From positions 682,001 to 746,000 of the forward strand of contig JAJQRF010000001.1 of assembly GCA_021228405.1 (NCBI GenBank): a stretch of DNA of 64,000 nucleotides, given 5' to 3'. Each line of letters begins with the position of its first letter. Position 1 is the first letter of the stretch. Shown one piece after another: positions 2,328 to 51,705 of the stretch. A program made the position numbers and the translations under genes. Source of the DNA: Pyrinomonadaceae bacterium. Lineage in GTDB: Bacteria > Acidobacteriota > Blastocatellia > Pyrinomonadales > Pyrinomonadaceae. The notes beneath the pieces were generated by a model. That model saw only the letters and a program-made list of their open reading frames with translations, had not been told where the DNA came from and ran no database searches.

Positions 2328-3563
2328 TTAAATGATTGTTCTCTCTTTCCAGCTTTGCGGGTTGCTTCCGTCGTCCAATCTGACCATTTCGACCGCGCCG
2401 GGCGACGGGCAAACCAACGTGCAGAGATTACAGCCGACACATTCGGCTTCGTCAACGTAGGGAAATTTGTTTTCGTCAAAGTGAAAACATTGATGTGCGC
2501 CGTCTTCGCAAGCGACGTAACAAAGATTGCATTTGATACATTTTTCGGGGTTTACACGCGCCACGACCTTGTAATTCAAATCCAGATTTCCCCAATCGGT
2601 CACACGATTGACGGATTTTCCGATAATTTCATTGACCGAAGCGAAACCTTTTTCGTCGAGATAATTGTTCAAACCGTCGATCATATCTTCGACGATTCGA
2701 TAACCGTAGTGCATCACTGCCGTGCAAACCTGCACTGTTCCTGCACCGAGCAGTAAAAATTCGACCGCATCGCGCCAGGTGTTGATGCCGCCGATGCCGG
2801 AAATCGGGATGTTGAATTCGGCATCACGCGCAAGTTCCGAAACCATATTGAGCGCGATCGGTTTGACCGCAGTTCCGCAATAACCGCCGTGCGCCGCCAT
2901 TCCGTTGACGTTCGGATACGGAATCATCGTGTCAATATCAACGCCCATCACCGAATTAATCGTATTTATCAGCGAAACTGCGTCCGCACCGCCTTTTTGT
3001 GCCGCGCGTCCCGGTGGAACGATGTGCGTCACGTTCGGCGTAAGTTTGACGATTACGGGTAGATTTGAAACTTCCTTTACCCATTCCGTGACCATACAGG
3101 TGTATTCGGGAACTTGTCCCATCGCCGCCCCCATTCCGCGTTCCGACATTCCGTGCGGACAGCCGAAATTCAGCTCAAAACCGTCGCAACCCGTGTCCTG
3201 CGTCCGCTTCACGATTTCGTGCCAAGCCTCGCGTTTCGATTCGACCATCAACGACGCGATCACGGCATTATTCGGATATTTCTTTTTGCACTCATACATT
3301 TCGCGCAAATTGACTTCCAAAGGTCGATCGGTAATGAGTTCGATGTTGTTCAAACCGATCATCCGCAACGCGCCGTTATCGAGCGAAGCGAGTCGCGACG
3401 AAACATTCACGATCGGCTCGCCCAGAGTTTTCCAAACCGCGCCGCCCCAACCCGCATCAAACGCCCGTTCGATCATCGAACCCATATTAGTCGGCGGCGC
3501 AGAAGCCAGCCAAAAAGGATTCGGCGATTTTATTCCCGCAAAATTTACACTTAAATCTGCCAT
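2328..3563 (-). CDS. preA: dihydropyrimidine dehydrogenase subunit PreA
   Basis: FMN- and iron-sulfur-containing subunit that reduces uracil or thymine to the 5,6-dihydro form, the first step of reductive pyrimidine catabolism. The flavin barrel covers residues 1-300 (LASAPPTN, ELNFGCPHGMSERGMG, ISGIGGI). Two 4Fe-4S motifs follow, CxxCxxCxxxC at Cys342-352 and Cys375-385. In the active-site loop GAAMGQ occupies the place where mammalian DPD has ACGQ with its catalytic Cys (family knowledge). No preT partner lies alongside. The start is 2 nt from the stop of the upstream decarboxylase gene, so the two are probably co-transcribed. Confidence 0.92.
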   Translation of the reverse strand: MADLSVNFAGIKSPNPFWLASAPPTNMGSMIERAFDAGWGGAVWKTLGEPIVNVSSRLASLDNGALRMIGLNNIELITDRPLEVNLREMYECKKKYPNNAVIASLMVESKREAWHEIVKRTQDTGCDGFELNFGCPHGMSERGMGAAMGQVPEYTCMVTEWVKEVSNLPVIVKLTPNVTHIVPPGRAAQKGGADAVSLINTINSVMGVDIDTMIPYPNVNGMAAHGGYCGTAVKPIALNMVSELARDAEFNIPISGIGGINTWRDAVEFLLLGAGTVQVCTAVMHYGYRIVEDMIDGLNNYLDEKGFASVNEIIGKSVNRVTDWGNLDLNYKVVARVNPEKCIKCNLCYVACEDGAHQCFHFDENKFPYVDEAECVGCNLCTLVCPSPGAVEMVRLDDGSNPQSWKERTII

Positions 3564-3565
3564 AG

Positions 3566-6175
3566 TTATTCCTCTTCCTCTTTTATCAGTTTTCTAGCTG
3601 ATGATTGAGATGCCTTGTGCAATTCAATAATGAACTCTTTAACTAAATTTTGATCGGTTTTTTGTCTGATCGAAGAGATATACGGATTCATTATCGTCGC
3701 TCTGAGAACAGTCAAGCCTTTTTCGATATATTCTCTCTTCGCACTTCGTAAATTGCAGTCATTGAAAAATCCTTCAAATGAATCAAAGTTGTAATAATTA
3801 TGCTCCATTTTAGTCTTTGAGATAAAGAAAGGTTGTGAGTAGCTGTGTTGCTTATCGCCTAATTCCGCTTGAATTGTAAAATAATTATAGACTTGTTCGG
3901 TCAATTTATTTATTCCGTTGATGGTTTCATTGTTTTTATCTTTAATGGCAAACACCACAACATTGGTATCAGGAACGGCTCCGAAAGTCGTAAATTCGTA
4001 AAGCAGATTTTTCCCCAATGCCTTCTCTGCAAATTTATTCCAACTATTCAGCCATTCATAAAGTTCTCTGGCGGCAAGCAGAGAAGATCTTATTATTAAG
4101 CCGTGATTTTTTCTGTTCAGAGGCACAGTCTTAGTAGATAACCAAAGCGAAGCCGCCGCCGCTCCGGGTTTGGAACCTTCCAGAATAAAAGGCGCAAACG
4201 CATCCGTCCCGATTTGATAAACATCGTATGGAGCGTTTTGTTCTTTCAGCTTTTTAAAGTCAATATTTTTGATGTGTCGCGGCGGATTATGAATTAGGGC
4301 ATTGTGCGAAGAAGAAGTTATATAAGGAGCACGTTGCATAATAAAATGCCTTACCCTGTCATTTTTGAAAGCCACTACTCCGCACGGATATTGAATGTAA
4401 CCCATTTTATGCGGATCTACGGTTATTGAATCGACATTCTTAAAAGCCAAAAAAGAACTGATTAATGGTTTTCCACCCCATTTAATCAAACGCTCTTCCT
4501 GATGATTATTCAATTTAATGGTGATTTTATCGCTTACATATTCCGATGTTTCATCTGATCTGTCAGTGATGCTTAATTCAAAAATTTTGCTATCCGACAA
4601 TTTCTCGATTGCATCGCGGTTTTTCTTAAATGATATTTTCGTTCCGAAATCGACGATCAATTTTTTTAACTCGCTGATGAATGACAAATAATCCTTCACA
4701 TTAGCCCAGTAAGACAATGAATCCAGCCTTCCGCCGTAGCCTTCCAATGTCTGCCTTAAAACAGAAGCATCTTCCTTTTCAAATTTAGTGTCGGTTTCTT
4801 TTGAAGTTTCTGCCGTTTCAACTTTGTTCGATTGATTGTCGGCTTCTTTGGCTACTTCTATCGTGTCATTTTCGAAAGAGTTAAGAATTAATTGTATTTT
4901 TTCGCCGAGCGACAAGGGTTTCGAATCTAAAATATTTAATTGAAAAAGAATTTTATCTAAGATAATGCTGACTTCCTCTTCCTCTTCAAGTCTGAACAGA
5001 GAGGCGATATATCCGCCCCACGCGGAATCGACGTGAAGCCAAAAGCTTATATCTTTTTCATTTTGAAATTTCTCGCGCAAATCCAGAATTTCGTGAACGG
5101 GATCAACCGCACCTTCTTCCGTCGTCGAACCTACTGCGACAACAGCTAAAGGCACTTTTCCCTGATCTAAAGCCTGATTTATTTTCAACTCCAGATCTTT
5201 CACATCCATTCTGAACTGGGAATCGGTTTTAACGACAACGACATTATTTCTTCCGATTCCCAAAATATCGGCGGCTTTTTTAACTGAATAATGAGCCGCA
5301 CCGGATGTAAAAATAACCGGAGGAAATTCACTGAACACTTTTCCCAAATGTGCGCCGACTCCGTATTTCGATTTACTCAGCCAGTCGGAAGCAATCTCGC
5401 CTACCTTGTCGATCTCCGTATTTTGATTTGCCTGTTTAACGGCATCGACGAACTTGGCATAGAGATAAATCGATTCATTAGGTTTGATATTTACGATCTC
5501 ATATTTTGACAACTCGTCTATTTTGTTCGGCTCATCGGTCGGCTTGGCACCAGGTTTTTTTACTTCAATGGATAAACCTTTCGTTTTAGCAACTTCCTGA
5601 ACTGCCAAAGGAAAATATTTTACGATTCTTGCAACCCAGAGGGCTTCAATATTGGCAACCGTTCCGCCCGAAGTAATATGTCCCCAGCCGAACTGACTCT
5701 TTAGTTCTCTTTCATAAACTTCCCAGTCTTTTTTCGAAGCATCCTTTTTAGGCGGAGTCGGCGCAGGCTTAAAACCAAGCATTTTCAAAATTTCATTGCA
5801 AGCCTCGATTTCCCATTCGACCGTAACCGGTGCCGCCTCCGGCGTGACATTATTCGAGTTATAAAGCATTCCGGCGAAATATCCCAACATTGACGGCATA
5901 GATACGTCGGACAGCATATGTGCAATGTATCGAGGGCTGTAAAACGGAAAATTTCTTCTTAACAAAGACATCATCTCCGTCACGTTCTGGTAGAGTTTGT
6001 CGTGCTCTTCCTCGTGCTCTCTTTGCATTCTTTTTGTAATTAGTAAATTATCGCTCGGGTAGTAATTCCTTCGCCAATGAATGTAATCCTGAATGATAGC
6101 CATCAATGTATCAACGAAAAGCTCGGAATTTTCTGCCTTAGGTCCTAAAAACCAAGCCAAATGTTTGTCATCCAT
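3566..6175 (-). CDS. PLP-dependent group II decarboxylase with a large insertion
   Basis: Fold type I PLP decarboxylase, closest by eye to bacterial tyrosine/aromatic amino acid decarboxylases (YSPRYIAHMLSDVSMPSMLGYFAGML and NNVTPEAAPVT near residues 79-118). TSGGTVANIEALW lies at 168-180 and HVDSAWGGY at 381-389 (Asp and Ala/His contacts of PLP). The Schiff-base Lys is K590 in VDPHKMGY. At 869 residues it is longer than the roughly 620 of bacterial tyrosine decarboxylases. About 180 extra residues (roughly 395-575), acidic and partly low-complexity, separate the HVD and DPHK motifs. Codon use looks more AT-rich than in the neighbours, which hints at transfer. The substrate is unknown. Confidence 0.85.
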   Translation of the reverse strand: MDDKHLAWFLGPKAENSELFVDTLMAIIQDYIHWRRNYYPSDNLLITKRMQREHEEEHDKLYQNVTEMMSLLRRNFPFYSPRYIAHMLSDVSMPSMLGYFAGMLYNSNNVTPEAAPVTVEWEIEACNEILKMLGFKPAPTPPKKDASKKDWEVYERELKSQFGWGHITSGGTVANIEALWVARIVKYFPLAVQEVAKTKGLSIEVKKPGAKPTDEPNKIDELSKYEIVNIKPNESIYLYAKFVDAVKQANQNTEIDKVGEIASDWLSKSKYGVGAHLGKVFSEFPPVIFTSGAAHYSVKKAADILGIGRNNVVVVKTDSQFRMDVKDLELKINQALDQGKVPLAVVAVGSTTEEGAVDPVHEILDLREKFQNEKDISFWLHVDSAWGGYIASLFRLEEEEEVSIILDKILFQLNILDSKPLSLGEKIQLILNSFENDTIEVAKEADNQSNKVETAETSKETDTKFEKEDASVLRQTLEGYGGRLDSLSYWANVKDYLSFISELKKLIVDFGTKISFKKNRDAIEKLSDSKIFELSITDRSDETSEYVSDKITIKLNNHQEERLIKWGGKPLISSFLAFKNVDSITVDPHKMGYIQYPCGVVAFKNDRVRHFIMQRAPYITSSSHNALIHNPPRHIKNIDFKKLKEQNAPYDVYQIGTDAFAPFILEGSKPGAAAASLWLSTKTVPLNRKNHGLIIRSSLLAARELYEWLNSWNKFAEKALGKNLLYEFTTFGAVPDTNVVVFAIKDKNNETINGINKLTEQVYNYFTIQAELGDKQHSYSQPFFISKTKMEHNYYNFDSFEGFFNDCNLRSAKREYIEKGLTVLRATIMNPYISSIRQKTDQNLVKEFIIELHKASQSSARKLIKEEEE

Positions 6176-7580: not shown

Positions 7581-7613
7581 AAAAGCGGAAGACTTAAAAA
7601 ATCTTCCGCTTTT
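7581..7613 (-). terminator. rho-independent terminator of the TonB receptor gene
   Basis: Perfect 12-bp stem (AAAAGCGGAAGA with TCTTCCGCTTTT) with a T-rich continuation on the minus strand. It lies just beyond the receptor stop codon. Confidence 0.85.
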
Positions 7614-7634
7614 TGTTTTTTAACTGCAATCAAC

Positions 7635-10600
7635 TTAAAAATCGAAGCGTGCACCGAGCTGGAATTCGCGGTTGTAGTTTGAGTTGAGCGTAAACGACGG
7701 CGAACCGGAAACGAACGTTCGCACCGTACCGAAATTCGTTGCCGGAAGCGACAAGCGCGGCGGAACGGGCGTTCCCGAAATCGTTCCCGCCGGAAGGAAT
7801 GTGTAAAGCGTATTGTTGACGGTCTGAACGTTTGCGCGGTTGAACAGGTTGAAGCCTTCCGCAAACAGCGACAGTTTGTAGCGTTCGCCGAAACGGATGA
7901 TCCTGCCGACGCGCAAATCGACGATATATATCGACGGACTCGTAAATTCGTTGCGTTTCGTTCCCGGAACGCGGTCGGTCGAAAAGATGCCGTCACCGTT
8001 CGGATCGCCCGCGACGAGTGCCGAATATGCCAGCCCCGATTGCGCCGTGAAAATTCCCGTGAAAACATAATCGCTCAAAAGTGCGCGAACGACCTTGTTT
8101 TCGCTTTGCTTGAAAGTTCCCGTTTCATAAACCGGGCTGAAAATGAAACGATGGCGCACGTCCAGATCGGAACGTCCGTATTCGCCCGAAAGATCGAATT
8201 GATTTTCGGCGATCTTCGCATCGTCGCCGCCGCCAGGAACGACCGAAGTTTGATCGGGTTTATCGTCCTTCGCTTTGGAAAGCGTGTAGCTCGTATTGAA
8301 TTGCCAACGGTTTGCAAAGCGTCGGTTAAACTCGAACGTCAAGCCCTGATAGAAGGATTTCGCCGTGCTTTCAAAGAGCGAAACGCGCTGGAAAGACGTG
8401 ATCGGACGCGGATTTGAAAATCTCTGGAAGGTAAAAGATTCGCTTGTTTGCGTGGTTCCGTTATACACAAAAACAGGTGTCGAAACGGGCGCGCTCAAGT
8501 TTGCATTGCGTGTTCTCGACAAATTCTGCCCGCGAAACATCGTGTATTGCACCGAAAAGATCGTGTTTGCAAACAATTCGCGCTCATACTGCGCACGCGC
8601 CTGATGCGTGAACGGCTGTTTGTAATCTTTGCCGAAAAGATAAAGATTCGGCGTAACGGCGGCAACATTCGTCGGGATGCCCGGAAAAACGTTCGGGTAT
8701 GACGGGCAGGTTCCTGCCGGAGCGGTCGTGCAATTGATGTCGATGGCGACGACCTGAATGCCGTTTTGCGAATGTGCCGTTCCCGTCATAATGGCGGTCG
8801 TGCGTCCGAAAAAGATTCCGTAACCGCCGCGAATGACCGATTTTTCGTCGGGTGCGTAGCTGATGCCGAAACGCGGTGCGAAATTGTTTTTATCCTTCGG
8901 CTGAAAACCCGTATCGAATCCGGCGGCAAGCAAAGCCGCGTTCGGATTTTGGATCGGCGGTTTGGCGATCGTTTGATAATCGTAGCGCAACCCTAGATTG
9001 ACTGTCGTTTTCGGCGAAACGCGCCAGTCGTCCTGCACGAAAAACCCGTATTCGCGGTTGTTCGGCTTCGTCGTGCCGCCCGTCGTGCCCGGTCCCGCAA
9101 AACTCTGGCGGTAACGCGAAGGAATTCCCGCCGCCAGATTCGCATAGCTCGTAAACGTGTAAGAACCGCCGAAAAGTCCGGGGAAAAAGTTAAAAATCTG
9201 GTCGAACAGCAAATCCGCGCCGTATTTAATGGCGTGGTTTCCCGTCAGAAAAGTCTGGTTGTTAATGAACTGGTAACGCGTGATCGTCGTTTCGCGCGGG
9301 CTGAAATTGTTGCGTCCGAAACTGAAGGTTCCGTCGTTGATACCGCCCGCGTTTGCCGTCACTGAAACCTCGGGTGCGTCAGAATTTGCCAAACCCGGTT
9401 CCTTATCGCGTGAAAACTGGAAACGAAACTCGTTGATCCACGTCGGCGTGATCGAATTTGTCCATTGCGTCGTCAAAGCCGAAGTCTTCACGTTGCTGTT
9501 TCCCGTGTGTTCTTCCGCGCTCAACGGTCCCGAATTTTCGAGGTTCGTTCCCGTAAAATTCTGCTGATTGAAGCGCACCCAGAGTTGATTGTCTTCGTTG
9601 ATGTTGAAATCGACCTTGCCGAGAAAAGTGTCCTGCTGGCGGTTGATATTGTATGAAGCAACCTTCGGGGTCAGCAGTGTTATGATCGCCGCCGGAGCGA
9701 ATGGAAGCGAATTGAGCACGACCGGATTCGGCAGATCGGAACGCTGTCCTTCATAAGCCGCGAAAAAGAAAATCTTGTCTTTTTTGATCGGTCCCCCCAA
9801 AACTCCGCCAAACTGATTGATCTGTCCCGAATTTCTTTTATTCGGCAATCCGCGAATGGCTTGCGTTGATTTTGTATTCGGTGAATTTGCATTGAGCGAT
9901 TCATCGCGGAAATATTCAAAAGCACTGCCCGTAAATCTGTTTGTGCCCGATTTCGTGACGACGTTGATGACCGCGCCCGCCGCCCGCCCGAATTCAGCCG
10001 AAAAGCCGTTCTGGTTAACCTGAAATTCCTTGACCGTATCGATCGAAAACTGCGACGGCGCGCGTCCCGAACCGATGCGTCCCGAAGATTGTCCGAAAAA
10101 CGTGTTGTCCGAGCTTGTGCCGTCGATCTGGATGCTGTTTAAGGTTCCTTTTTGACCGCCGACGGCGAGATCGCCCTGCCGTGTCGGGTCGCGGACGATG
10201 CCGGGCGTTAAGGTCACAAAATCCAGAAAGTTGCGCCCGTTCGTCGGCAGATTGATGACTCGTCGCTCTTCAACCGTCGAAGAGATCGAAGTCCGCGTGG
10301 CTTCCACGCCCTGACCTTCAGCGTTCACGTCAACCACGTTGACCGAACCGCCCGTCGAGAGCGTGATGTCGAGCGAAGTTTTCGCGCCGACCGTGACTTT
10401 GACGTTTTCATACGTCGAAACCGCGAAACCTTTGGCGGCGGCGGTTTCGACCTTGTAATTTCCGGGCGGCAGTAAAATAAACACAAAATATCCTTCGTCG
10501 TTTGAAAGAACGGTTTTGCCGAAGCCCGTATCCTGATTTGTCGCCGAAACCGTAATTCCCGGCACGACCGCCCCGTTCTGGTCAGCGACGGTGCCCTCGA

Positions 10601-10685
10601 TATTTCCGGTAGTCGATTGCGATTGTGCAAATAAATTTATACTTAATGCCGTAATTGCTATAAAAAATGTAAATATTTTTTTCAT
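7635..10685 (-). CDS. TonB-dependent receptor, Oar-like, with N-terminal carboxypeptidase-regulatory domain
   Basis: Outer-membrane beta-barrel transporter of 1016 residues. It has a signal peptide (MKKIFTFFIAITALSINLFAQ), then a CarboxypepD_reg beta-sandwich (GNIEGTVADQNGAVVPGITV to about 110), then a plug (LPTNGRNFLDFVTLTPGIV; QIDGTSSDNTFFG; GRAAGAVINVVTKSGTN near 230-260). The rest is a barrel with aromatic-rich strands ending in LGARFDF, a C-terminal Phe as needed for BAM recognition. This architecture is typical of the many SusC/Oar-like receptors of Acidobacteriota; the substrate (oligosaccharide, peptide or siderophore) is not readable. The gene stands alone, with a long AT-rich upstream region and its own terminator. 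Confidence 0.93.
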   Translation of the reverse strand: MKKIFTFFIAITALSINLFAQSQSTTGNIEGTVADQNGAVVPGITVSATNQDTGFGKTVLSNDEGYFVFILLPPGNYKVETAAAKGFAVSTYENVKVTVGAKTSLDITLSTGGSVNVVDVNAEGQGVEATRTSISSTVEERRVINLPTNGRNFLDFVTLTPGIVRDPTRQGDLAVGGQKGTLNSIQIDGTSSDNTFFGQSSGRIGSGRAPSQFSIDTVKEFQVNQNGFSAEFGRAAGAVINVVTKSGTNRFTGSAFEYFRDESLNANSPNTKSTQAIRGLPNKRNSGQINQFGGVLGGPIKKDKIFFFAAYEGQRSDLPNPVVLNSLPFAPAAIITLLTPKVASYNINRQQDTFLGKVDFNINEDNQLWVRFNQQNFTGTNLENSGPLSAEEHTGNSNVKTSALTTQWTNSITPTWINEFRFQFSRDKEPGLANSDAPEVSVTANAGGINDGTFSFGRNNFSPRETTITRYQFINNQTFLTGNHAIKYGADLLFDQIFNFFPGLFGGSYTFTSYANLAAGIPSRYRQSFAGPGTTGGTTKPNNREYGFFVQDDWRVSPKTTVNLGLRYDYQTIAKPPIQNPNAALLAAGFDTGFQPKDKNNFAPRFGISYAPDEKSVIRGGYGIFFGRTTAIMTGTAHSQNGIQVVAIDINCTTAPAGTCPSYPNVFPGIPTNVAAVTPNLYLFGKDYKQPFTHQARAQYERELFANTIFSVQYTMFRGQNLSRTRNANLSAPVSTPVFVYNGTTQTSESFTFQRFSNPRPITSFQRVSLFESTAKSFYQGLTFEFNRRFANRWQFNTSYTLSKAKDDKPDQTSVVPGGGDDAKIAENQFDLSGEYGRSDLDVRHRFIFSPVYETGTFKQSENKVVRALLSDYVFTGIFTAQSGLAYSALVAGDPNGDGIFSTDRVPGTKRNEFTSPSIYIVDLRVGRIIRFGERYKLSLFAEGFNLFNRANVQTVNNTLYTFLPAGTISGTPVPPRLSLPATNFGTVRTFVSGSPSFTLNSNYNREFQLGARFDF

Positions 10686-10904
10686 TTATTCCTCTTTTGT
10701 AACTATCCGCAGAAAATTTCCAAAGGAAAACTTTCTACGAAAACACATACAAAAACACAGCTTCGAGCCGTGTTTTGCACACAAAAACCCGCAAACTTCC
10801 CAATGTTCGGTTATAAATTTAGGTGAATCAACAAAAATAATAAATTACACAGAGAAATTGTGGCAAACAGGAAAAGAGTAAATTTATGTTACAAACGCCG
10901 TGAA

Positions 10905-11040
10905 ACGGATAGTGGATAACTGATAACTGATAACTGATAACTGATAACTGATAGCTGTTCTATCACTATCAACTATCAACTATCCACTATCCACTATCCG
11001 TTCTATCACTATCCACTATCAACTATCCGTTACCCGTTAC
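10905..11040. repeat. heptamer-repeat hairpin (TGATAAC / ACTATCM units)
   Basis: At least five tandem TGATAAC-type heptamers (10913-10950) are followed by ACTATCA and ACTATCC heptamers on the complementary side, with outer arms ACGGATAGTGGAT and TCCACTATCCGT. A second run reaches into the last codons and stop of moaE. The rest of the 10686-10904 gap is AT-rich receptor upstream DNA in which I could not pick out a convincing promoter. Confidence 0.9.
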
Positions 11041-11439
11041 CCAGATTTCGCCGTCGGCATAGACTTCTTTTTTCCAGATCGGGACGGTTTTCTTGAGTTC
11101 TTTGATGAGCCATTCGCAAGCCTCGAAAGCGGCGCGGCGGTGCGGCGATGCGACGGAGATGACGACGCTCGTTTCGCCGATCTCCAACCTGCCCAGACGA
11201 TGCACGATGCCGACATTGGCGATCTCGAAGAGTTGTTTCGCACGTTCGCCGAGCTTTTCCATTTCCTTCAAAGCCATCGGCTCATAGCCTTCGTAAACGA
11301 GATACTGCGTTTCGCGTCCTTTCGTAAATTTGCGGACAAATCCATCCAAAGTAACGATTGCCCCGCATTCTACGGGCACGACCCGCCGCGCAATCTCGCC
11401 GACATTCAAAGGCTCGTTTGTAATTTCGTAAAAATCCAT
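11023..11439 (-). CDS. moaE: molybdopterin synthase catalytic subunit MoaE
   Basis: Catalytic large subunit of MPT synthase, which adds two sulfurs delivered by MoaD thiocarboxylate to cyclic pyranopterin monophosphate. Family hallmarks are GAIVTLDGFVR, LVYEGYEPMALKEM, IVHRLGRLEIGETSVVISVASPHRRAAFEAC and VPIWKKEVYADGEIWV (catalytic Lys region). I chose the start at 11439 (MDFYEITNEPL, 138 residues), which matches the normal MoaE N-terminus; an upstream ATG at 11475 would add 12 residues translated from an intergenic repeat. The last codons (VTGNG-stop) are made of repeat sequence. It lies downstream of moaD. Confidence 0.93.
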   Translation of the reverse strand: MDFYEITNEPLNVGEIARRVVPVECGAIVTLDGFVRKFTKGRETQYLVYEGYEPMALKEMEKLGERAKQLFEIANVGIVHRLGRLEIGETSVVISVASPHRRAAFEACEWLIKELKKTVPIWKKEVYADGEIWVTGNG

Positions 11440-11450
11440 AAAATTAATTG

Positions 11451-11510
11451 CCGCAAAGAAGCACAAAAATATCAAAAAAATTATTTTGTGTTTTTTGTGC
11501 CTTTTCGCGG
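11451..11510. repeat. intercistronic hairpin between moaD and moaE
   Basis: Imperfect palindrome with arms CCGCAAAGAAGCACAAAAA and TTTTTTGTGCCTTTTCGCGG. It begins 4 nt after the moaD stop and belongs to the 9-10-nt-unit hairpin group. Confidence 0.7.
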
Positions 11511-11514
11511 ATAT

Positions 11515-11754
11515 TTAACCGCCTGAAACCGCCGTAAAAATTGCGAGTTCGTCGCCGTTTTTGATGATTTCGCCGCCGTCCGCGTATTCCTGGTTGACGG
11601 CAAAAAGCAATTTATGCGCCTTCAAACGCGGATATTTTTCGACGATCTCCGCAAACGCCCGTTCCGCGCTGATGTTTTCGTCAAACGAAAATTCGATTTC
11701 TCTTTCGCCCGTTTCATCGGCAGTCGCCCCGAAAAATAAAACCTGCACATTCAT
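11515..11754 (-). CDS. moaD: molybdopterin synthase sulfur-carrier subunit MoaD
   Basis: 79-residue ubiquitin-like beta-grasp protein. Its C-terminal Gly-Gly (AIFTAVSGG) is adenylated and thiocarboxylated and then donates sulfur in MPT synthase. The typical start VQVLFFGATADETG and the LLFAVNQEYA segment support the call over ThiS. It directly precedes moaE on the same strand, so the two MPT synthase subunits form one unit; no moaA/B/C or moeB is present in the window. Confidence 0.92.
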   Translation of the reverse strand: MNVQVLFFGATADETGEREIEFSFDENISAERAFAEIVEKYPRLKAHKLLFAVNQEYADGGEIIKNGDELAIFTAVSGG

Positions 11755-11761
11755 AAAAAAC

Positions 11762-12100
11762 TCAATTGATAAAACTCGAACCCGAATATTTCAAAAGATT
11801 ACAATTTCGGCAATTTGATATAAAAATCGGACTTGTCGCAAAAAAGGAAGATGTAAAAAACCTTTTGGAGCAACGCGGGCATTTCCAATTATTAAAACGA
11901 ATCCAAGCTCTCAAATAGAAAAAAATCCAAATACTAACCACTAAATATATGATCCATTCTTGCTTTACTTTCAATAAACTCATAAGGCTGGCAAGAATCA
12001 TTATTCCAAAAGAACCAAGAAAAAAAGTCCCGAAATCGGCATTCCTCAAACGCCGATATTCTCCCCATTCTTTTTGGTAAGGATATTTTTCGCCATTCAT
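11762..12100 (-). CDS. small membrane protein with a C-terminal zinc ribbon
   Basis: 112 residues, function unknown. Two adjacent hydrophobic segments (FGTFFLGSFGIMILASLMSLL and WIIYLVVSIWIFFYLRAWI, about 24-75) are followed by a four-Cys motif CPRC...CRNC (about 83-104) that would bind one zinc on the cytosolic side. It ends 7 nt before the moaD start on the same strand, so it may be co-transcribed with moaDE, but nothing in the sequence links it to molybdopterin synthesis. Confidence 0.65.
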   Translation of the reverse strand: MNGEKYPYQKEWGEYRRLRNADFGTFFLGSFGIMILASLMSLLKVKQEWIIYLVVSIWIFFYLRAWIRFNNWKCPRCSKRFFTSSFFATSPIFISNCRNCNLLKYSGSSFIN

Positions 12101-12117
12101 TGCAGAATTATTTTACC

Positions 12118-12448
12118 AAAGACGTTTTCAAACGTCTTTCGCCGAAGGCGCAACCGATTCGCCGCCGCATCCGTTTATGGCGCGGTTATGTGCCGCTTCG
12201 CGAAAAGCCTTTGAACAAGGCTGAGATTATTCTCAAAATTTACACACGACCGATTGCAAATTACACACGAGCGTTTTTCACTCAAATATGAGCCAATGAC
12301 GGACGCTTCGACTGGCGCGCAGACATCCTTACCTGCAAGATTGCGGCGCGTTTCGCGCAACAATCTAACGAAGTGCAGTTAAAACTCAACTTGAAGTTAA
12401 CTAAACTTCGTCATCGTTTTTCAAACGCTTGCAGGCATCCTCGCCTGC
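12118..12448. other. hairpin-dense non-coding stretch
   Basis: No convincing gene. Short perfect palindromes follow one another: AAAGACGTTT with AAACGTCTTT (12118-12139), CGCC-GAA-GGCG (12140-12150), AGCCTT with AAGGCT (about 12209-12225), TGAGA with TCTCA just after, and GCAGGC-ATCCTC-GCCTGC (12431-12448). A degenerate direct copy of the last one lies at 12319-12336. It could be a structured RNA or a pile-up of repeat elements. Confidence 0.55.
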
Positions 12449-12482
12449 GCTCCAGTCATTCAGACGTTTTTCGCACACACAC

Positions 12483-12776
12483 CCGAAACTTTTGCACGAA
12501 CGACAGTTTCCTTTGCAAACGAATCCGAAACTTTTGCACACGAACCCTGAGCTTTTGCAAGCCTACCCGAACCTTTTGCACGTCAACCCGAAAGTTTTGC
12601 AGACGAACCCTGATGTTTTGCAATTCAATCCGAAAGTTTTGCAAAGTCACCCGAAACTTTTGCAAACCTATCCGAAAGTTTTGCAGACGAACCCGAAACT
12701 TTTGCACGTCAACCCTGAACTTTTGCGAAATCATCCGAAAACTTTGCAAAAACGTCCGAAAGCCTTGCAGAATCAC
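12483..12776. repeat. 21-bp tandem array 1 (14 units)
   Basis: Fourteen consecutive units of exactly 21 nt, core CCGAAACTTTTGCA followed by a variable seven bases. Because 21 is a multiple of three, several frames stay open. In the plus frame the units read as heptads PKLLHTN, PELLQAY, PKVLQTN and so on. Pro varies only as CCG/CCT, and the last codon of each heptad almost always ends in a pyrimidine. No start codon or ribosome-binding site precedes it. It is bounded by a heptamer repeat at 12782. Confidence 0.92.
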
Positions 12777-12781
12777 GTTTT

Positions 12782-12815
12782 CAATTCGTAATTCGTAATT
12801 TGAAATTCGTAATTG
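12782..12815. repeat. 34-nt heptamer-type repeat, copy 1
   Basis: AATTCGT/AATTTGA-type units. The 34 nt are identical to 13710-13743. Each copy lies 2-5 nt beyond the stop codon of a thi gene (thiG here, thiS there). Confidence 0.9.
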
Positions 12816-12819
12816 ACGC

Positions 12820-13590
12820 TTACTTTATCGCGCCTTCGATCGGACTCGATGCGGAAGCGTAAAGACGTTTCGGCATCCTGCCCGACAGATACGAAAGTCT
12901 TCCCGCTTTGACCGCATAACTCATCGCCGTCGCCATCATCGCGGCATCTTTTGCTTCGGCGATGGCAGTATTCATCAAAATCGCATCCGCGCCGAGTTCC
13001 ATCGCAATCGAAGCGTCCGACGGAACTCCGACTCCGGCATCGACGATGATCGTTGCATCCGGCAATTGCTCGCGCATAATGCGAAGATTAGAAGGATTCT
13101 GCACTCCCATTCCCGAACCGATCGGCGCGGCAAGCGGCATCACCGCCGGACAGCCGATGTCAAGCAGTTTTTTCGCCATAATCAAATCATCCGAAAAATA
13201 AGGCAACACGATAAAGCCTTCCTTCACCAAAACCCGCGCCGCTTCGAGCGTCTGCTCGTTGTCCGGCAAAAGCGTTACTTTGTCGCCGATGACTTCGAGT
13301 TTGATCCAATCCGTTTCCAGAGCTTCACGCGCCAGCCGCGCCGTGCGGATCGCGTGTTCGGCATCGTAACAGCCCGCCGTATTCGGCAAAATCTGCATCG
13401 AAGAATCGAGGTAATCCAGAAAGGATTCCGTCGCCCGATCGAGCGGCACACGATTGACCGCAACCGTCACCATCTCGGCTCCCGAAGCCTTATGCGCCGC
13501 CTGCATTTCCTGATAACTGCGGTATTTTCCCGTCCCGATAATAAGACGCGAATTAAATGTTTTTCCTGCTAATGTAAATGAATCTGTCAT
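12820..13590 (-). CDS. thiG: thiazole synthase ThiG
   Basis: 256-residue TIM-barrel enzyme that makes the thiazole phosphate of thiamine from 1-deoxyxylulose 5-phosphate, dehydroglycine and ThiS-thiocarboxylate. Diagnostic segments are [36 protein letters not shown] (the Lys forms the imine with the sugar), [20 protein letters not shown] and [11 protein letters not shown]. Length is normal. It lies downstream of thiS with a repeat-filled gap between them. No TPP riboswitch is seen upstream of either gene. Confidence 0.95.
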
Positions 13591-13595
13591 ATGAA

Positions 13596-13743
13596 CAATT
13601 ACGAATTACGAATTTCAAATTACGAATTTATGAATAAAATTGATGTTCCTAATGTTATACAAAAACGGGCGCAAAAGAAATGCGGACTAAATTAGAAAAA
13701 TTTAATCCGCAATTCGTAATTCGTAATTTGAAATTCGTAATTG
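13596..13743. repeat. heptamer-repeat hairpin between thiS and thiG
   Basis: ATTACGA/ATTTCAA units at 13596-13628 face the complementary AATTCGT/AATTTGA copy at 13710-13743. Together they can form a hairpin of about 33 bp around a loop of about 80 nt, in the thiS-thiG mRNA. Confidence 0.88.
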
Positions 13744-13745
13744 AA

Positions 13746-13946
13746 CTAACCGCCGCCAACGAAATGAACGATCTCGATCTTGTCCGCCTCACTCAAAACC
13801 GTGCTTTCCCAGTCTTTTTTGCGCACGATCTCTTTATTTAATTCGACCGCGATGCGCTGACCGGAAAGATGTAAAGTCTGCACGAGTTCGCTGACCGTCT
13901 GCGTTTCGCCGAATTCCCTTTTTTCACCATTCAACGTGATCTGCAT
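13746..13946 (-). CDS. thiS: sulfur-carrier protein ThiS
   Basis: 66-residue beta-grasp sulfur carrier for thiazole synthesis. It has the N-terminus MQITLNGEKREF, the middle RIAVELNKEIVRKKDW typical of ThiS, and the C-terminal IVHFVGGG with the Gly-Gly that is thiocarboxylated. It precedes thiG on the same strand, the usual partner order. Confidence 0.93.
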   Translation of the reverse strand: MQITLNGEKREFGETQTVSELVQTLHLSGQRIAVELNKEIVRKKDWESTVLSEADKIEIVHFVGGG

Positions 13947-14010
13947 AATGATTGAATTTTAATTCATTGCACACAAAAAGTGCGAATGGAAGTCGGCTAA
14001 AACTTCTTCC

Positions 14011-14037
14011 AATCGCAAATCGAAAATCGCAAATATT
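14011..14037. repeat. short heptamer run (AATCGCA)
   Basis: Three and a half AATCGCA/AATCGAA heptamers directly abut the stop codon of the gene that ends at 14038. No complementary arm is visible nearby. Confidence 0.65.
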
Positions 14038-15210
14038 TTACCCGTGCGAAACGACGCGGCGCAGTTCGGCTTCCTCGCCGTCGCTCATCCCGCGCACGAG
14101 AATCGCGGCGCGTCCCGAACGAAAATGCGGAAGCTGTAAATGCACGACCGCAATGCCGTTCTGATCGGTTTTTGCATGAAAAATCAGCGGACGAAAGCTC
14201 GAACCGAGAACTTTCACCATAATCTGCGCGCCGCTGATGCCTTTGCCGTGCCCGCCGCGCGAAACCAGAATGCTGACAGTTTTGCGCTCACCGCCGCGAA
14301 AGTTTGTTTCGGTCAGAAACTCAACCTGTAATTTATTGCTGACGGGCGGTTCGACCTTGACGTAATCGCCGACGATCTCGACCGCTTCCGCCGGAAGAAT
14401 CAATTCGTCGTCCTCGATGATCTCGACCGCCTCGATAATCATTTCCTCTTCGTCGCCGCGAACTTCGACCGATCTGATCGGAAAATCCCAGATTTCTTCC
14501 TGCTTCGGTTTCGGAATTGCCGTTTCGGTTTTCGCAGACTCGTTTTTCGGAACTTCAAACGGCGGATTTTTTAACGGTTGGGTCGTTCGGTCGGGCGGTG
14601 TTGTCTGTGCCGATTCATTTTTGCCGTGGTAAACCGTCGGCTTCGGCAAAGCTTTAAAATCTTCGAGCTTAGGTTTCGGAATCGGGGATTGTGAAATGAT
14701 TGTTTCCTTATGTTCCGAAACTTTTTCGACGATCTTCCCGACGGACTTTTCAGGCGGGTTTTCAGCAATTTTTTCCGTTACGGGCTTAACATCTTTCTGA
14801 ACATTTTGCCCGTTACCATTGATAAAAACGGGATTCTCGACCGGCGCAGGTTCGGAAACGGTGACGGTCGGCTTCGATTCTTTGAGCGTTACGTTTGCAC
14901 CGATCTCTTTTTTGACGTTTTTCTGTTTCGCGGCAGACTCTTTTTCGGTCATCCGCTTCAAATCTTCGATGCGCCCGGCGCGAACCGCCGCGCAGATCAG
15001 TTTGTGCTGTTTCTGCAAACGCTGGGCAAGAACTTTTTCATCGAACTTGTCCGCTAACAGATCGTCATAAGACGCACGTTTACTCGCCAGGATCGTGCCG
15101 CGATTGTAAACCAGCGACAAAATCAGCGGCGTATCCAAACCTTTATCCTCGGTCTGAACATGATACGTTACGCCTTCATATTCGATGTCTGTATTGAATC
15201 CTGTAATCAC
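14038..15210 (-). CDS. uncharacterised two-domain protein with a proline-rich linker
   Basis: 390 residues, function unknown. The N-terminal domain (1-75, MITGFNTDIEYEGVTYHVQTEDKG then LSLVYNRGTILASKRASYDDLL) resembles a conserved region that I recall from acidobacterial proteins. Residues about 85-290 form a low-complexity linker rich in Lys, Pro, Glu and Thr (KPKLEDFKALPKP, IPKPKQEE), and an acidic patch follows (EAVEIIEDDELILPAEAVEIV). The C-terminal 90 residues look like an Ig-like beta-sandwich (GISGAQIMVKVLG, KTDQNGIAVVHLQLP, GRAAILVRG). There is no signal peptide. It may be a scaffold or surface adaptor; this is not established. Confidence 0.6.
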   Translation of the reverse strand: MITGFNTDIEYEGVTYHVQTEDKGLDTPLILSLVYNRGTILASKRASYDDLLADKFDEKVLAQRLQKQHKLICAAVRAGRIEDLKRMTEKESAAKQKNVKKEIGANVTLKESKPTVTVSEPAPVENPVFINGNGQNVQKDVKPVTEKIAENPPEKSVGKIVEKVSEHKETIISQSPIPKPKLEDFKALPKPTVYHGKNESAQTTPPDRTTQPLKNPPFEVPKNESAKTETAIPKPKQEEIWDFPIRSVEVRGDEEEMIIEAVEIIEDDELILPAEAVEIVGDYVKVEPPVSNKLQVEFLTETNFRGGERKTVSILVSRGGHGKGISGAQIMVKVLGSSFRPLIFHAKTDQNGIAVVHLQLPHFRSGRAAILVRGMSDGEEAELRRVVSHG

Positions 15211-15442
15211 AGTTGTTTTAGTTAAACGGTTTGGCGAGCGTTAGAACGAGCAGCATCAGGCGAAATCGCCTATATTGAAATTACCACAGCCTTTGTTGGC
15301 GGTCAATAATTAATTGTTTCGCTACTGTAAAAATTGTCCCTTTAAAGCCGAATCCGATTTTTGAATCCGGATCGCAAACATTTGATAAGATTAAGCGATT
15401 TTTCGGATTAACTTGCCTAATATAAATTGGTTCCTTACTGTC

Positions 15443-15471
15443 TTGACTCTCTTTCTAGCTTAACTTACGAT
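15443..15471 (+). promoter_or_regulatory. candidate sigma-70 promoter of the nuo operon
   Basis: TTGACT, 17 bp, TACGAT; predicted transcription start about 7 nt downstream and a leader of about 86 nt to nuoA. The remainder of the 15211-15563 gap shows no gene. Confidence 0.5.
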
Positions 15472-15563
15472 TGAATTTGTGCAATAATTCTCAATCTTAT
15501 AGATAAAATAAAGCGCAATTTCGTATTTCTAAAACAGGCAAAAAGGATTTAAGATTAAAACAA

Positions 15564-16055
15564 ATGAACGATTTTAATATTATCGATTACGCACCGATTG
15601 GCATTATGTTTATTGTCGCCTTCGGATTTGCCGCAAGTCAGATTTTGGTCACACAGCTTGTCGGTCCGCGCAAACGAACGGCAACTAAGCTGATGCCGTA
15701 TGAATGCGGCAAAGACCCGGTCGGCTCGGCGCGCGACAGATTTTCGATCAAATTTTATACGGTCGCCGTTATCTTCCTGCTGTTCGACATCGAAGTTTTA
15801 TTTATGATCCCGTTCGCGGTCGCGTTCAAATATCTTTTGGATCAGGAAAAACTGAGCGGCGTTGCCTTCGGAACGATTGCGTTTATTGAAATTCTGGTTT
15901 TCATCTCGACTCTTGTCGTCGGATATATCTATGTCTGGAAAAAAGGCACCTTCGATTGGGGATTACAAGCCCGCGCCGAAGCCCGCGAAGAAGCCAAACA
16001 AGCCTTGAAAGAAAGAAAACAACAGGCGATCAGAGATTTTCAGCGCGCGGCGTAA
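15564..16055 (+). CDS. nuoA: NADH-quinone oxidoreductase subunit A
   Basis: Membrane subunit of complex I with three TM helices (about 12-35, 68-90, 96-120). The signature LMPYECGKDPVGSARDRFSIKFYTVAVIFLLFDIEVLF contains the conserved Glu/Cys loop that reaches the quinone channel. At 163 residues it is longer than usual because of a charged Ala/Arg/Glu tail after the last helix. First gene of the nuo run; nuoB follows after 15 nt with a GGAG site. Confidence 0.96.
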   Translation: MNDFNIIDYAPIGIMFIVAFGFAASQILVTQLVGPRKRTATKLMPYECGKDPVGSARDRFSIKFYTVAVIFLLFDIEVLFMIPFAVAFKYLLDQEKLSGVAFGTIAFIEILVFISTLVVGYIYVWKKGTFDWGLQARAEAREEAKQALKERKQQAIRDFQRAA

Positions 16056-16070
16056 ATATTGGAGTAGATA

Positions 16071-16718
16071 ATGGGTTTAGAGAATACAATTTTTGAATCG
16101 CTTCCTGACGTAATCACCGTCAAACTCGATGCCGTCGTCAATTGGGCACGCAAATCGTCATTGTGGCCGGCTACGTTCGGTCTGGCTTGCTGTGCGATTG
16201 AAATGATGAACAGCGTTTCGGCTCGTAACGATTTGTCGCGTTTCGGCGCGGAAACATTTCGTGCCAGCCCGCGTCAGGCTGACGTAATGATCGTTTCGGG
16301 ACGCGTTTCGAGAAAGATGGCTCCGGTTTTGCGCCGAATTTACGATCAGATGCCCGAACCGAAATGGGTTATCTCAATGGGTGCCTGTGCAACTTCGGGC
16401 GGCGTTTTCGATAATTACGCGATCGTTCAGGGCGTTGACAAAATCGTTCCGGTCGATATTTATATTCCCGGATGCCCGCCGCGCCCGGAAATGCTCGTTC
16501 ACGCGATCACGATGTTGCAGGAAAAGATTATGAACGAATCGGTGAAAGACCGCCGCGATACTTTTGAAGAAGAATCGCGCGTTTCGATCGTTCCGGGCAC
16601 GTTGCCGGTCACGGAAGGAACGGCTTTGGAAAGAGAAAAAGAGATCGAAGTCGCGCAAAACAAAGTTTCGCGTCCTTATTCGGTTCCGTCGCGCCACGAA
16701 CGTCGCAAATCTTCGTAG
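16071..16718 (+). CDS. nuoB: NADH-quinone oxidoreductase subunit B
   Basis: Peripheral-arm subunit that holds the terminal 4Fe-4S cluster N2, which passes electrons to quinone. The four ligands are visible as Cys40-Cys41 (LACCAIEMM), Cys106 (MGACATSGG) and Cys135 (PGCPPRPE). The core ends near residue 160; an extra charged tail ([13 protein letters not shown]... ending HERRKSS) makes the protein 215 residues. Confidence 0.97.
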
Positions 16719-33617: not shown

Positions 33618-33695
33618 TTTGCCCACGAAACACACGAAAGAAACGAAAGAAAATCAAAGGACTTTTTCGTATTTTTCGTGTATTTCGTGGGCAAA
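33618..33695. repeat. nonamer-type hairpin after nuoN
   Basis: Arms TTTGCCCACGAAACACACG and its near-perfect complement ending CGTGGGCAAA, built from CACGAAANN units, with a loop of about 15 nt. Nearly the same arm is found at 51092. It may also end the nuo transcript, though no T-tract follows. Confidence 0.9.
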
Positions 33696-50334: not shown

Positions 50335-51069
50335 ATGACAGCAAAATTAAATCAAGTCATCGCCATCGAAAAAGGCGCGAAAAACAGACTTTACTCTGCC
50401 ATTACCGAATTACATAAAAACGCTCAAAAAGCCGATCTGTATTACGGTTTCAGCAAAAATTACGAACCGAAAGAAGAAGGAAGCGAACAATTTCCGCCCG
50501 AACAAAAGAAAGTTATGCTTCGCGCCGACGATGTTTTGTCGGAAACGAAAAAGATTTTCGCCGAATTTTTAGACATTACCGCGACCAAAGATTTCGCCAA
50601 TATGTCAGCCAAAGCCGACATTAAAATCGGCGGAAACGTTCTGGTTGCAGATGTTCCCGTTCCGTATCTGTTGTTTTTGGAAAAACAATTGACCGATCTG
50701 CGGACTTTTATCGACAAAATGCCGACTTTGGACGAATCGGAAGATTGGCGCAAAGACGAAGCGACCGGACTTTTCAAAACCGAACCGATCAAAACGCACC
50801 GCACGGCAAAAGTTCAGGAAGCGATCGTTTTATATGACGCAACCGAAAAACATCCGGCGCAAACACAGCTTATCACGAAAGATGTGATCGTCGGTTATTG
50901 GAATCAGGTCAAACAATCGGGCGCGATCACACGCGGCGAAAAACGCAAATTGCTCGAAAGGGTCGAAGCCGTTTTGAACGCCGTCAAATCCGCCCGCGAA
51001 GAAGCAAACTCAATCGAAGCACCGGATAAAAAAGTCGGCGCGGATTTGCTCGATTACATTTTTGCTTGA
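50335..51069 (+). CDS. conserved protein of unknown function (DUF7873-like)
   Basis: 244 residues, mainly helical: KLNQVIAIEKGAKNRLYSAITELHKNAQKADLYYGFSKNYEPK, VMLRADDVLSETKKIFAEFLDITATKDFANMSAKADI, PVPYLLFLEKQLTDLRTFIDKMPTLDESEDW, then VIVGYWNQVKQSGAITRGEKRKLLERVEAVLNAVKSAREEANS. I recall this family from several phyla as uncharacterised; the number DUF7873 is from memory. No TM. GGAG ribosome-binding site upstream. Confidence 0.7.
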   Translation: MTAKLNQVIAIEKGAKNRLYSAITELHKNAQKADLYYGFSKNYEPKEEGSEQFPPEQKKVMLRADDVLSETKKIFAEFLDITATKDFANMSAKADIKIGGNVLVADVPVPYLLFLEKQLTDLRTFIDKMPTLDESEDWRKDEATGLFKTEPIKTHRTAKVQEAIVLYDATEKHPAQTQLITKDVIVGYWNQVKQSGAITRGEKRKLLERVEAVLNAVKSAREEANSIEAPDKKVGADLLDYIFA

Positions 51070-51091
51070 TGTTTGATTGGAAAAAGATTTA

Positions 51092-51171
51092 GCCCACGAA
51101 ATACACGAAAATTATGAAAAAGAGAACTTTTTCATATTCAATCTTTCGTTTATTTCGTGTGTTTCGTGGGC
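51092..51171. repeat. nonamer-type hairpin, second copy of the nuoN-type arm
   Basis: GCCCACGAAATACACGAAA against TTTCGTGTGTTTCGTGGGC, with further CACGAAANN units; the arms match 33621-33691 almost base for base. Confidence 0.9.
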
Positions 51172-51209
51172 AAATTCCTTTCTTTAATTATTCTAAACGG
51201 TTGATTGAG

Positions 51210-51296
51210 AGATTAGCTTGAGTTAATCTTTCAAATGAGCCGTTTGGCTCAACTTGGACAAGCTTAATTTTAAGTTTAAGTTGAAAAAAGCTTCTT
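51210..51296 (+). other. structured leader of the tRNA cluster
   Basis: Two stable hairpins: AGATTA-loop-TAATCT within TTGAG...CAA (about 51216-51236) and GAGCC-GTTT-GGCTC (about 51237-51250). CTTAA/TTAAG palindromes follow up to the first T arm. No gene; probably part of the tRNA-cluster transcript. Confidence 0.5.
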
Positions 51297-51380
51297 GCAG
51301 GTTCGAGTCCTGCTCTCCGCACTACAAAAATTTTCTTACGCGGAGATGGCGGAATTATGGCAAACGCGCCCGTTTTTAAG
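51297..51380 (+). other. permuted tRNA-Leu-like element: 3' half, spacer, 5' half
   Basis: T arm GCAGG-TTCGAGT-CCTGC (51297-51313), then acceptor 3' strand TCTCCGC (51314-51320), A and CTA. After 15 further nt (51325-51339) comes GCGGAGA (51340-51346), the exact complement, with TG, D stem GCG/CGC (51349-51351, 51365-51367) and an anticodon-arm-like CCGTTTTTAAG. Joined, the halves resemble a tRNA-Leu with UAA-like loop, but no 3' anticodon strand could be placed with confidence (AAACGG near 51196 is a candidate). A decayed tRNA pair is the alternative. Confidence 0.5.
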
Positions 51381-51472
51381 CGAGTGAAGCCGATCAAACT
51401 CAATTTATTCCAAGAAGTTGAAAAACTCGGTTTGAATCCATCTCAAACTGTCAATACAAATTTGTTGTTGTT

Positions 51473-51540
51473 GCAGGTTCGAGTCCTGCTTTCCCCGCCA
51501 AAATTTTTATGGGGAAATAGCTCAATGGTAGAGTGGCGAT
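51473..51540 (+). other. second permuted tRNA-like element with encoded G-CCA
   Basis: T arm GCAGG-TTCGAGT-CCTGC (51473-51489), acceptor 3' strand TTTCCCC (51490-51496), discriminator G and CCA (51498-51500). After 10 nt comes GGGGAAA (51511-51517), the exact complement, followed by TA and D arm GCTC-AATGGTA-GAG. Discriminator G and the D arm would suit tRNA-Trp, -Asp, -Asn or -Gln. The anticodon region is unresolved. Confidence 0.5.
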
Positions 51541-51590
51541 ACTGAGATCTGAAGATTGACATTAAACGCCGTTGGATTTTGAAAGACCGA

Positions 51591-51662
51591 AGCAAAGTAG
51601 CTCAATGGTAGAGCAATTGCCTGAAAAGCAATGAGATGTCAGTTCGATTCTGACATTTGCAA
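51591..51662 (+). tRNA. tRNA-Phe (GAA)-like gene with a weak acceptor stem
   Basis: D stem GCTC/GAGC, anticodon stem ATTGC/GCAAT with loop CTGAAAA (anticodon GAA at 51623-51625), T arm GTCAG-TTCGATT-CTGAC, ordinary order. The acceptor strands AGCAAAG and ATTTGCA pair at only five of seven positions and no CCA is encoded. It may be a degenerate second tRNA-Phe. Confidence 0.6.
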
Positions 51663-51670
51663 ACACAATC

Positions 51671-51705
51671 GCGGGGTAGATAGGCTACATCTACTCCGCT
51701 TTTTC
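51671..51705 (+). terminator. terminator of the tRNA cluster
   Basis: GCGGGGTAGAT pairs with ATCTACTCCGC (one G-T pair) and a T-run follows. Confidence 0.85.

Follow-up and report, generated by a model that had tools for sequence, protein, structure and literature searches.

Do transfer RNA (tRNA) halves that stand in permuted order on an acidobacterial chromosome belong to permuted tRNA genes, to a decayed tRNA cluster, or to an RNA of another kind? The question is raised by a stretch of 64,000 nucleotides (nt) from a Pyrinomonadaceae bacterium (GCA_021228405.1, contig JAJQRF010000001.1, positions 682,001-746,000, forward strand), called the window below, in which a sequence-only reading had recognised two pairs of halves, each with a T arm and 3' acceptor strand followed by the matching 5' acceptor strand and a D arm. 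Our analyses confirm that these permuted half-pairs are real, far beyond chance. Comparison of relatives furthermore shows, at the level of a predicted structure, one long RNA with two helical arms next to each other and, at the tip of each, a tRNA core in circularly permuted order (modules A and B). The RNA lies downstream of a gene of the protein family DUF7873, with which it probably forms a ribonucleoprotein cassette.

Two permuted tRNA-like modules in one structured RNA

Both half-pairs were found in the order and at the coordinates given by the sequence-only reading, and in both the neighbouring 3' and 5' strands pair at all seven positions. Its extent of 51297-51540 is only part of the element, whose ends, estimated from conservation and the terminator, lie near 51194 and 51704. 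The folding z-score of the whole element is -5.3. Modules A and B have identical T arms, so that folding the window element as a single sequence mispairs them, and the comparative structure was used instead. Its parts are as follows.

51194-51704 (+): whole conserved non-coding RNA, about 510 nt, with a terminator hairpin and T run at its end (conservation, folding)
51253-51258 (+): 5' strand CTTGGA of a proposed long-range helix around module A, pairing with 51409-51414
51290-51294 (+): module A, helix GCTTC equivalent to the anticodon stem, pairing with GAAGC at 51386-51390 (by eye)
51297-51313 (+): module A, T arm (T-loop invariants in 43/43 loci)
51314-51320 (+): module A, acceptor 3' strand TCTCCGC, 7/7 paired with 51340-51346
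51321-51339 (+): module A, acceptor loop (ACTAC...), 19 nt, with an NC(C/U)A-like start (sequence, relatives)
51340-51346 (+): module A, acceptor 5' strand GCGGAGA, pairing with 51314-51320
51347-51367 (+): module A, positions 8-9 and Leu-like D arm (sequence, 43-locus set)
51409-51414 (+): 3' strand TCCAAG of the proposed long-range helix, pairing with 51253-51258
51434-51439 (+): module B, basal helix GAATCC, pairing with GGATTT at 51574-51579 (helix 1 of A4, covariation at all 7 pairs)
51440-51448 (+): 5' side of the conserved internal loop, here AUCUCAAAC and in actinophages AUCGACC (alignment of relatives)
51449-51455 (+): module B, outer helix TGTCAAT, pairing with ATTGACA at 51555-51561 (helix 2 of A4, covariation at all 6 pairs)
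51473-51489 (+): module B, T arm (sequence, alignment)
51490-51496 (+): module B, acceptor 3' strand TTTCCCC, followed by GCCA, 7/7 paired with 51511-51517
51497-51510 (+): module B, acceptor loop GCCAAAATTTTTAT, 14 nt (position 74 is C in 43/43)
51511-51517 (+): module B, acceptor 5' strand GGGGAAA (43-locus set, alignment)
51518-51536 (+): module B, positions 8-9 and D arm (43-locus set, alignment)
51562-51573 (+): 3' side of the conserved internal loop, UUAAACGCCGUU, a candidate site for protein binding (UUAAA near-invariant across phyla)

Stem, loop and invariant counts were taken from a non-redundant set of 43 loci in which both modules are present. Of its acceptor stems, 41 in module A and all 43 in module B are fully paired (7/7), and their sequences differ widely, with 28 distinct stems in module A and 30 in module B. 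When the module A partners were re-dealt among loci, only 2.6/43 reached 7/7. Pairing in ordinary order, that is, the 5' half of A with the 3' half of B, averages 4.3/7 and is complete at a single locus (1/43), so that the mispairing pointed out in the sequence-only reading is borne out, and evolution keeps the permuted pairing. Among unselected pairs of a T arm and the next D arm at DUF7873 loci, 114 of 128 had 7/7 complementary acceptor strands. The strict module detector found a module downstream of the gene in 83/98 loci, upstream in 10/98 and in shuffled sequence in about 1.8/98; some of the phages behind the upstream detections carry tRNA arrays.

Each module retains all tRNA elbow invariants: U8, the D-loop GG, G53, U54, U55, C56, R57, A58, C61 and Y48 are present at 100% in both, part of which is selection by the detector, since T-loop and D-arm motifs were required. 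At the position of the anticodon arm each module opens into a helix, and the flanks of each module pair together as body helices in which compensatory changes are seen. The sequence-only reading could not rebuild anticodon arms, and indeed none is encoded; they are absent by design, an open helix taking their place. In the 24-sequence alignment of module B and the outer helices, on which the compensatory-change counts are based, compensatory changes on both sides of the pair were seen at 27 of the 29 pairs, with a covariation score of 0.814 vs 0.236 after shuffling and 208 vs 61 double-change cells; sliding the partner by one column lowers pairing from 95% to about 43%. Below module B, AUCGACC stands opposite UUAAACG in the internal loop. 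The helix equivalent to the anticodon stem of module A is GTTTC/GAAAC in relatives (L061, L063, L065, L067). The proposed long-range helix, GAGCG/CGCTC in actinobacterial relatives, is paired in about 70-85% of rows per position and has compensatory changes, a weaker support than that of the modules.

Linkage to DUF7873 and distribution

The gene upstream of the RNA is assigned with confidence to its family.

50335-51069 (+): DUF7873 protein gene (244 amino acids), proposed RNA partner (Pfam PF25283, E=4e-98)

The window protein scores 328 bits against the PF25283 profile, whose curated cut-off is 27, and its AF2 model reaches a predicted local distance difference test (pLDDT) value of 91 with 63 homologues, compared with 40 from the single sequence. 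No family for DUF7873 was found in PHROGs, NCBIfam or PADLOC, and none of the papers found in our literature search mentions it. Between its stop codon and the RNA lies an inverted repeat (51091-51171) with arms close to TTTCGTGTGTTTCGTGG, of which the window holds a second copy at 33623-33690; most relatives have no gap there, and the repeat looks like a small palindromic mobile element.

The element is present in one copy in the window genome. The comparison with relatives that the sequence-only reading had proposed found it kept in other genera: in two of the same family, about 505 nt are conserved at 85% and 81% identity, and the acceptor stems are compensated, TCTCCGC/GCGGAGA being changed to TCTTCGC/GCGAAGG and TCCCGCG/CGCGGGA. 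DUF7873 occurs in 10 of the 162 genomes of the bacterial class, and all ten have two permuted modules directly behind the gene; a genome-contig scan with a single-sequence query returned six acidobacterial loci, the same as the genome search. The downstream genes differ among several of these genomes, which suggests a cassette that moves. Beyond the class, tblastn detected DUF7873 in 73 phage records, including phages of Vibrio, Gordonia, Rhizobium, Klebsiella, Serratia, Arthrobacter, Pseudanabaena, Rhodococcus and Microcoleus, as well as in Streptomyces and Nonomuraea replicons, and an alignment query detected it in 215 viral contigs. The gene-RNA pair was seen in Streptomyces and Nonomuraea, in IMG/VR contigs and in Gordonia, Rhodococcus, Arthrobacter, Pseudanabaena and Klebsiella phages; the inspection by locus covered phage and actinobacterial records, none of them from Vibrio, Rhizobium or Serratia. 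Several of the inspected phage and actinobacterial RNA loci lie inside a tRNA array, and the annotation over the RNA stretch in these records is blank or consists of small frames.

A covariance model (R1) was built from module B. It was trained on the 24 sequences and matches those by construction; L058, L059, L060 and most viral loci are outside its training set. Over the 162 class genomes nine score at least 89.6 bits, all of them DUF7873 genomes, and all others score 53.3 bits or less, the tenth DUF7873 genome (G064, locus L059) having an insert in its module B loop and reaching 75.5 bits in a local search. The lower-scoring matches in class genomes include canonical YrlA RNAs, several beside tRNA arrays. 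Among 91 DUF7873 loci, R1 reaches 45 bits or more in 84, and nearly all of these matches lie a short way downstream of the gene. Three of the seven loci without such a match (L104, L107, L135) are on contigs whose end is no more than about 320 nt from the gene. A comparison of neighbours across loci revealed no other gene family that recurs beside the pair. In 52 of 88 loci, tRNA genes lie within a few kilobases. At one locus, L164, the RNA (4445-4586, minus strand) is on the opposite strand to the DUF7873 gene and about 1.2 kilobases away. This arrangement argues that the RNA is not merely a 3' untranslated region, that it can act in trans and that co-transcription is not required.

Acceptor loops of the modules

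The acceptor loops start with N73, C74 (40/43 in module A and 43/43 in module B, i.e. 83/86 modules), C/U75 and often A76, and YRU precedes G1 at their end. Module A loops measure 6-62 nt in the 43-locus set, and acceptor loops overall reach 76 nt. Larger inserts were also encountered, of about 150 nt in module B of L059 and about 170 nt in module A of L060, and in the viral relative L089 (about 3300-3980) the module A loop extends to about 620 nt and holds a reading frame for an HNH endonuclease, around which a perfect CCGGGGT/ACCCCGG acceptor stem is kept. Such inserts would fit either excision of the loop, as in two-piece transfer-messenger RNA (tmRNA), or an unconstrained acceptor tip. The loops of true YrlA RNAs mostly lack the NC(C/U)A-YRU pattern (AGCGAT, TTCGG, AAAACTTCTAT).

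Relation to known tRNA-like RNAs

The statement in the sequence-only reading that permuted tRNA genes are not established in bacteria holds for translational tRNAs, but not for two other bacterial RNAs, as a circular permutation with respect to tRNA is known for the tRNA-like domain of the Y RNA YrlA (6CU1; PMC11472068), and the genes of two-piece tmRNA are likewise permuted (PMC3985003). With the permutation documented for 6CU1, the topology of the modules is already known. A permissive Rfam scan placed RF02553 (YrlA) over module B (51448-51565, 37.6 bits, E=1.3e-6), and matches in phage and actinobacterial loci range from 27.9 to 37.9 bits. The RF02553 consensus itself comprises a T arm, a closed acceptor stem and a D arm within an outer helix, which is a permuted tRNA core, and the true YrlA of the same bacterial family has the same permuted module. 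YrlA bridges Rsr to PNPase, bears tRNA modifications and engages the enzymes TruB and DusA (PMC8394870).

Our RNA and YrlA thus share the succession of outer helix, T arm, closed acceptor stem, positions 8-9, D arm and outer helix, and a gene beside that of an RNA-binding protein (for DUF7873, a proposed one), often near tRNA arrays. In contrast to YrlA, which has one domain in 90-150 nt, the DUF7873 RNA has two modules in about 400-510 nt; it adjoins the DUF7873 gene instead of Ro60/Rsr, has the conserved AUCGACC/UUAAACG internal loop, and carries acceptor loops of the NC(C/U)A-YRU pattern that can accommodate a whole gene. The window genome also has an RNA-repair cluster, separate from the DUF7873 locus, with a run of about 16 tRNA genes (L084, G000:C19:332000-351000, 7591-16212), a Ro60/TROVE-vWA gene (10838-12403), RtcB (15013-16212) and a YrlA match of 62.1 bits at C19:342406-342550. 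Canonical-type YrlA-like permuted modules, two or three in tandem, were observed in relatives (L183, L180 and G105:C276:5058-5437).

With two-piece tmRNA the DUF7873 RNA has in common an acceptor 3' strand ahead of the 5' strand, a loop between them and a CCA-like signal in that loop, whereas it differs in having two tRNA-like domains and a partner other than SmpB, and in lacking the G3-U70 pair of alanine identity, a G-U being present in only 2/43 A modules and 1/43 B modules. No tag reading frame was recognised in it, although no systematic frame search was made, and the Rfam tmRNA models had no match in the window. The record of Gordonia phage Phendrix (L071 1063-1591) lacks annotation of a tmRNA gene (RF00023, 89 bits) that we found in its tRNA array. 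Permuted tRNA genes of algae and archaea likewise have the 3' half before the 5' half and a matching acceptor stem; unlike these, the DUF7873 RNA has no anticodon arm, its open side is a body helix and no sealed junction is expected. GOLLD and ROOL resemble it as large ornate phage RNAs, often near tRNAs, while the DUF7873 RNA is smaller, made of tRNA mimics and linked to a protein, and the Rfam scan of the window gave no GOLLD or ROOL match. Our literature search found no description of a twin-module RNA, within an incomplete coverage of Y RNA papers in which an earlier mention of tandem modules is possible.

Further features of the element

Outside the two modules, the following features were recognised.

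51207-51232 (+): 5' hairpin GAGAGATTA/TAATCTTTC (sequence and alignment of relatives)
51236-51251 (+): 5' hairpin TGAGCC-GTTT-GGCTCA (sequence and alignment)
51591-51662 (+): tRNA-like unit in ordinary order (ARAGORN: tRNA-Phe GAA; ARAGORN, Rfam)
51671-51704 (+): 3'-terminal hairpin (loop AGGCTAC) and T run, an intrinsic terminator (sequence)

At the place of the 3'-terminal hairpin, relatives have hairpins with a GG-UA-like loop. The tRNA-like unit at 51591-51662, which is all that ARAGORN and Rfam at its gathering score detected in the element stretch, is confined to the acidobacterial family of the window, where its anticodon loop varies (GAA, TTT, GTT and others). Its acceptor stem is imperfect, and the window genome has a separate ordinary tRNA-Phe elsewhere; the unit is probably not a normal tRNA-Phe, and probably an addition to the cassette, not its core. 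A group I intron in a tRNA-Leu was also considered for the halves and rejected, the spacers of about 105-130 nt being too short and Rfam giving no such intron.

Function and alternative explanations

We consider it probable, at roughly 0.62, that the structured RNA and DUF7873 form a Y-RNA-like ribonucleoprotein cassette that works like a bacterial Y RNA. DUF7873 would bind the RNA body, with the AUCGACC/UUAAACG internal loop as candidate site, and the two tRNA mimics would recruit or occupy enzymes that read the elbow and acceptor of a tRNA, be it an exonuclease of the PNPase type, on the model of the Ro60-YrlA machine, or enzymes that process or modify tRNA. A phage, or a cell with an acquired cassette, may in this way steer RNA decay or tRNA handling. 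Several points weigh against this explanation. The RF02553 match is below the gathering score (37.6 vs 69), and the putative PNPase target is borrowed from YrlA. We infer the function of the cassette from comparative sequence, and the RNA binding of DUF7873 from the gene-RNA linkage alone. A Foldseek search with the AF2 model gave no match at E<=0.001, and the best structural row in VIA was 3kdq (Z 8.7, root-mean-square deviation 7.9, 146 aligned), itself a protein of unknown function, so that the fold offers no functional hint.

The pattern of the acceptor loops, from N73 and the near-invariant C74 to YRU before G1, would also suit a permuted precursor, from which RNase P and 3' processing excise the loops to leave paired pieces with mature NC(C/U)A ends that might be CCA-completed or charged. 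Two-piece tmRNA, made from a permuted gene, is a precedent (PMC3985003), and both the mostly missing pattern in bona fide YrlA loops nearby and the acceptance of large inserts, including the HNH gene, speak in the same direction; many loops are, however, a minimal 6-7 nt and could be a conserved cap, and C74 is missing in some acidobacterial A loops, so we regard this explanation as doubtful. Its full form, in which host tRNA-processing enzymes would open the loops to give a multi-piece, phage-spread RNA with two mature tRNA-like ends, bound by DUF7873, is more doubtful still. Alternatively, the tRNA mimics could serve as decoys for, or inhibitors of, enzymes that attack tRNA, as an anti-defence or anti-toxin element of tRNA-rich phages, in keeping with the mostly phage-borne distribution, with the nearby tRNA genes and with such a role having been suggested for the YrlA tRNA-like domain (PMC7790460). 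The modules nevertheless lack the anticodon arm, the cut site of most tRNA nucleases, PADLOC gave no match, and no tRNA array adjoins the chromosomal copy of the window, which leaves a decoy unlikely.

Far less probable are the two origins between which the sequence-only reading had hesitated. Circularly permuted genes ligated into working, translational tRNAs would account for the order of the halves and their perfect acceptor stems, yet neither module has an anticodon arm, their flanks form covarying body helices, the acidobacterial hairpin after the D arm of module A varies and is not an anticodon arm, and the genome has 61 ordinary tRNA matches above the Rfam cut-off; we hold this to be very improbable. 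A decayed and fused tandem tRNA cluster, to which the Leu- and Trp-like halves and the intact tRNA-like unit behind them had pointed, is refuted by conservation and covariation, as the element persists, with compensatory changes, in phages and in further genera and phyla, and we give such decay next to no credence.

Implications

The gene-RNA pair provides a lead to what DUF7873 does, and a covariance model is now ready for use. Two questions become testable: whether phage RNA scaffolds capture tRNA enzymes, and whether permuted acceptor loops are cut in vivo. If the loops are indeed opened, the RNA would join tmRNA and Y RNA as a third kind of machine built on tRNA mimicry. Tandem tRNA mimics together with an uncharacterised protein, found in phages and in bacteria from several phyla, would extend Y-RNA-like biology beyond Ro60.
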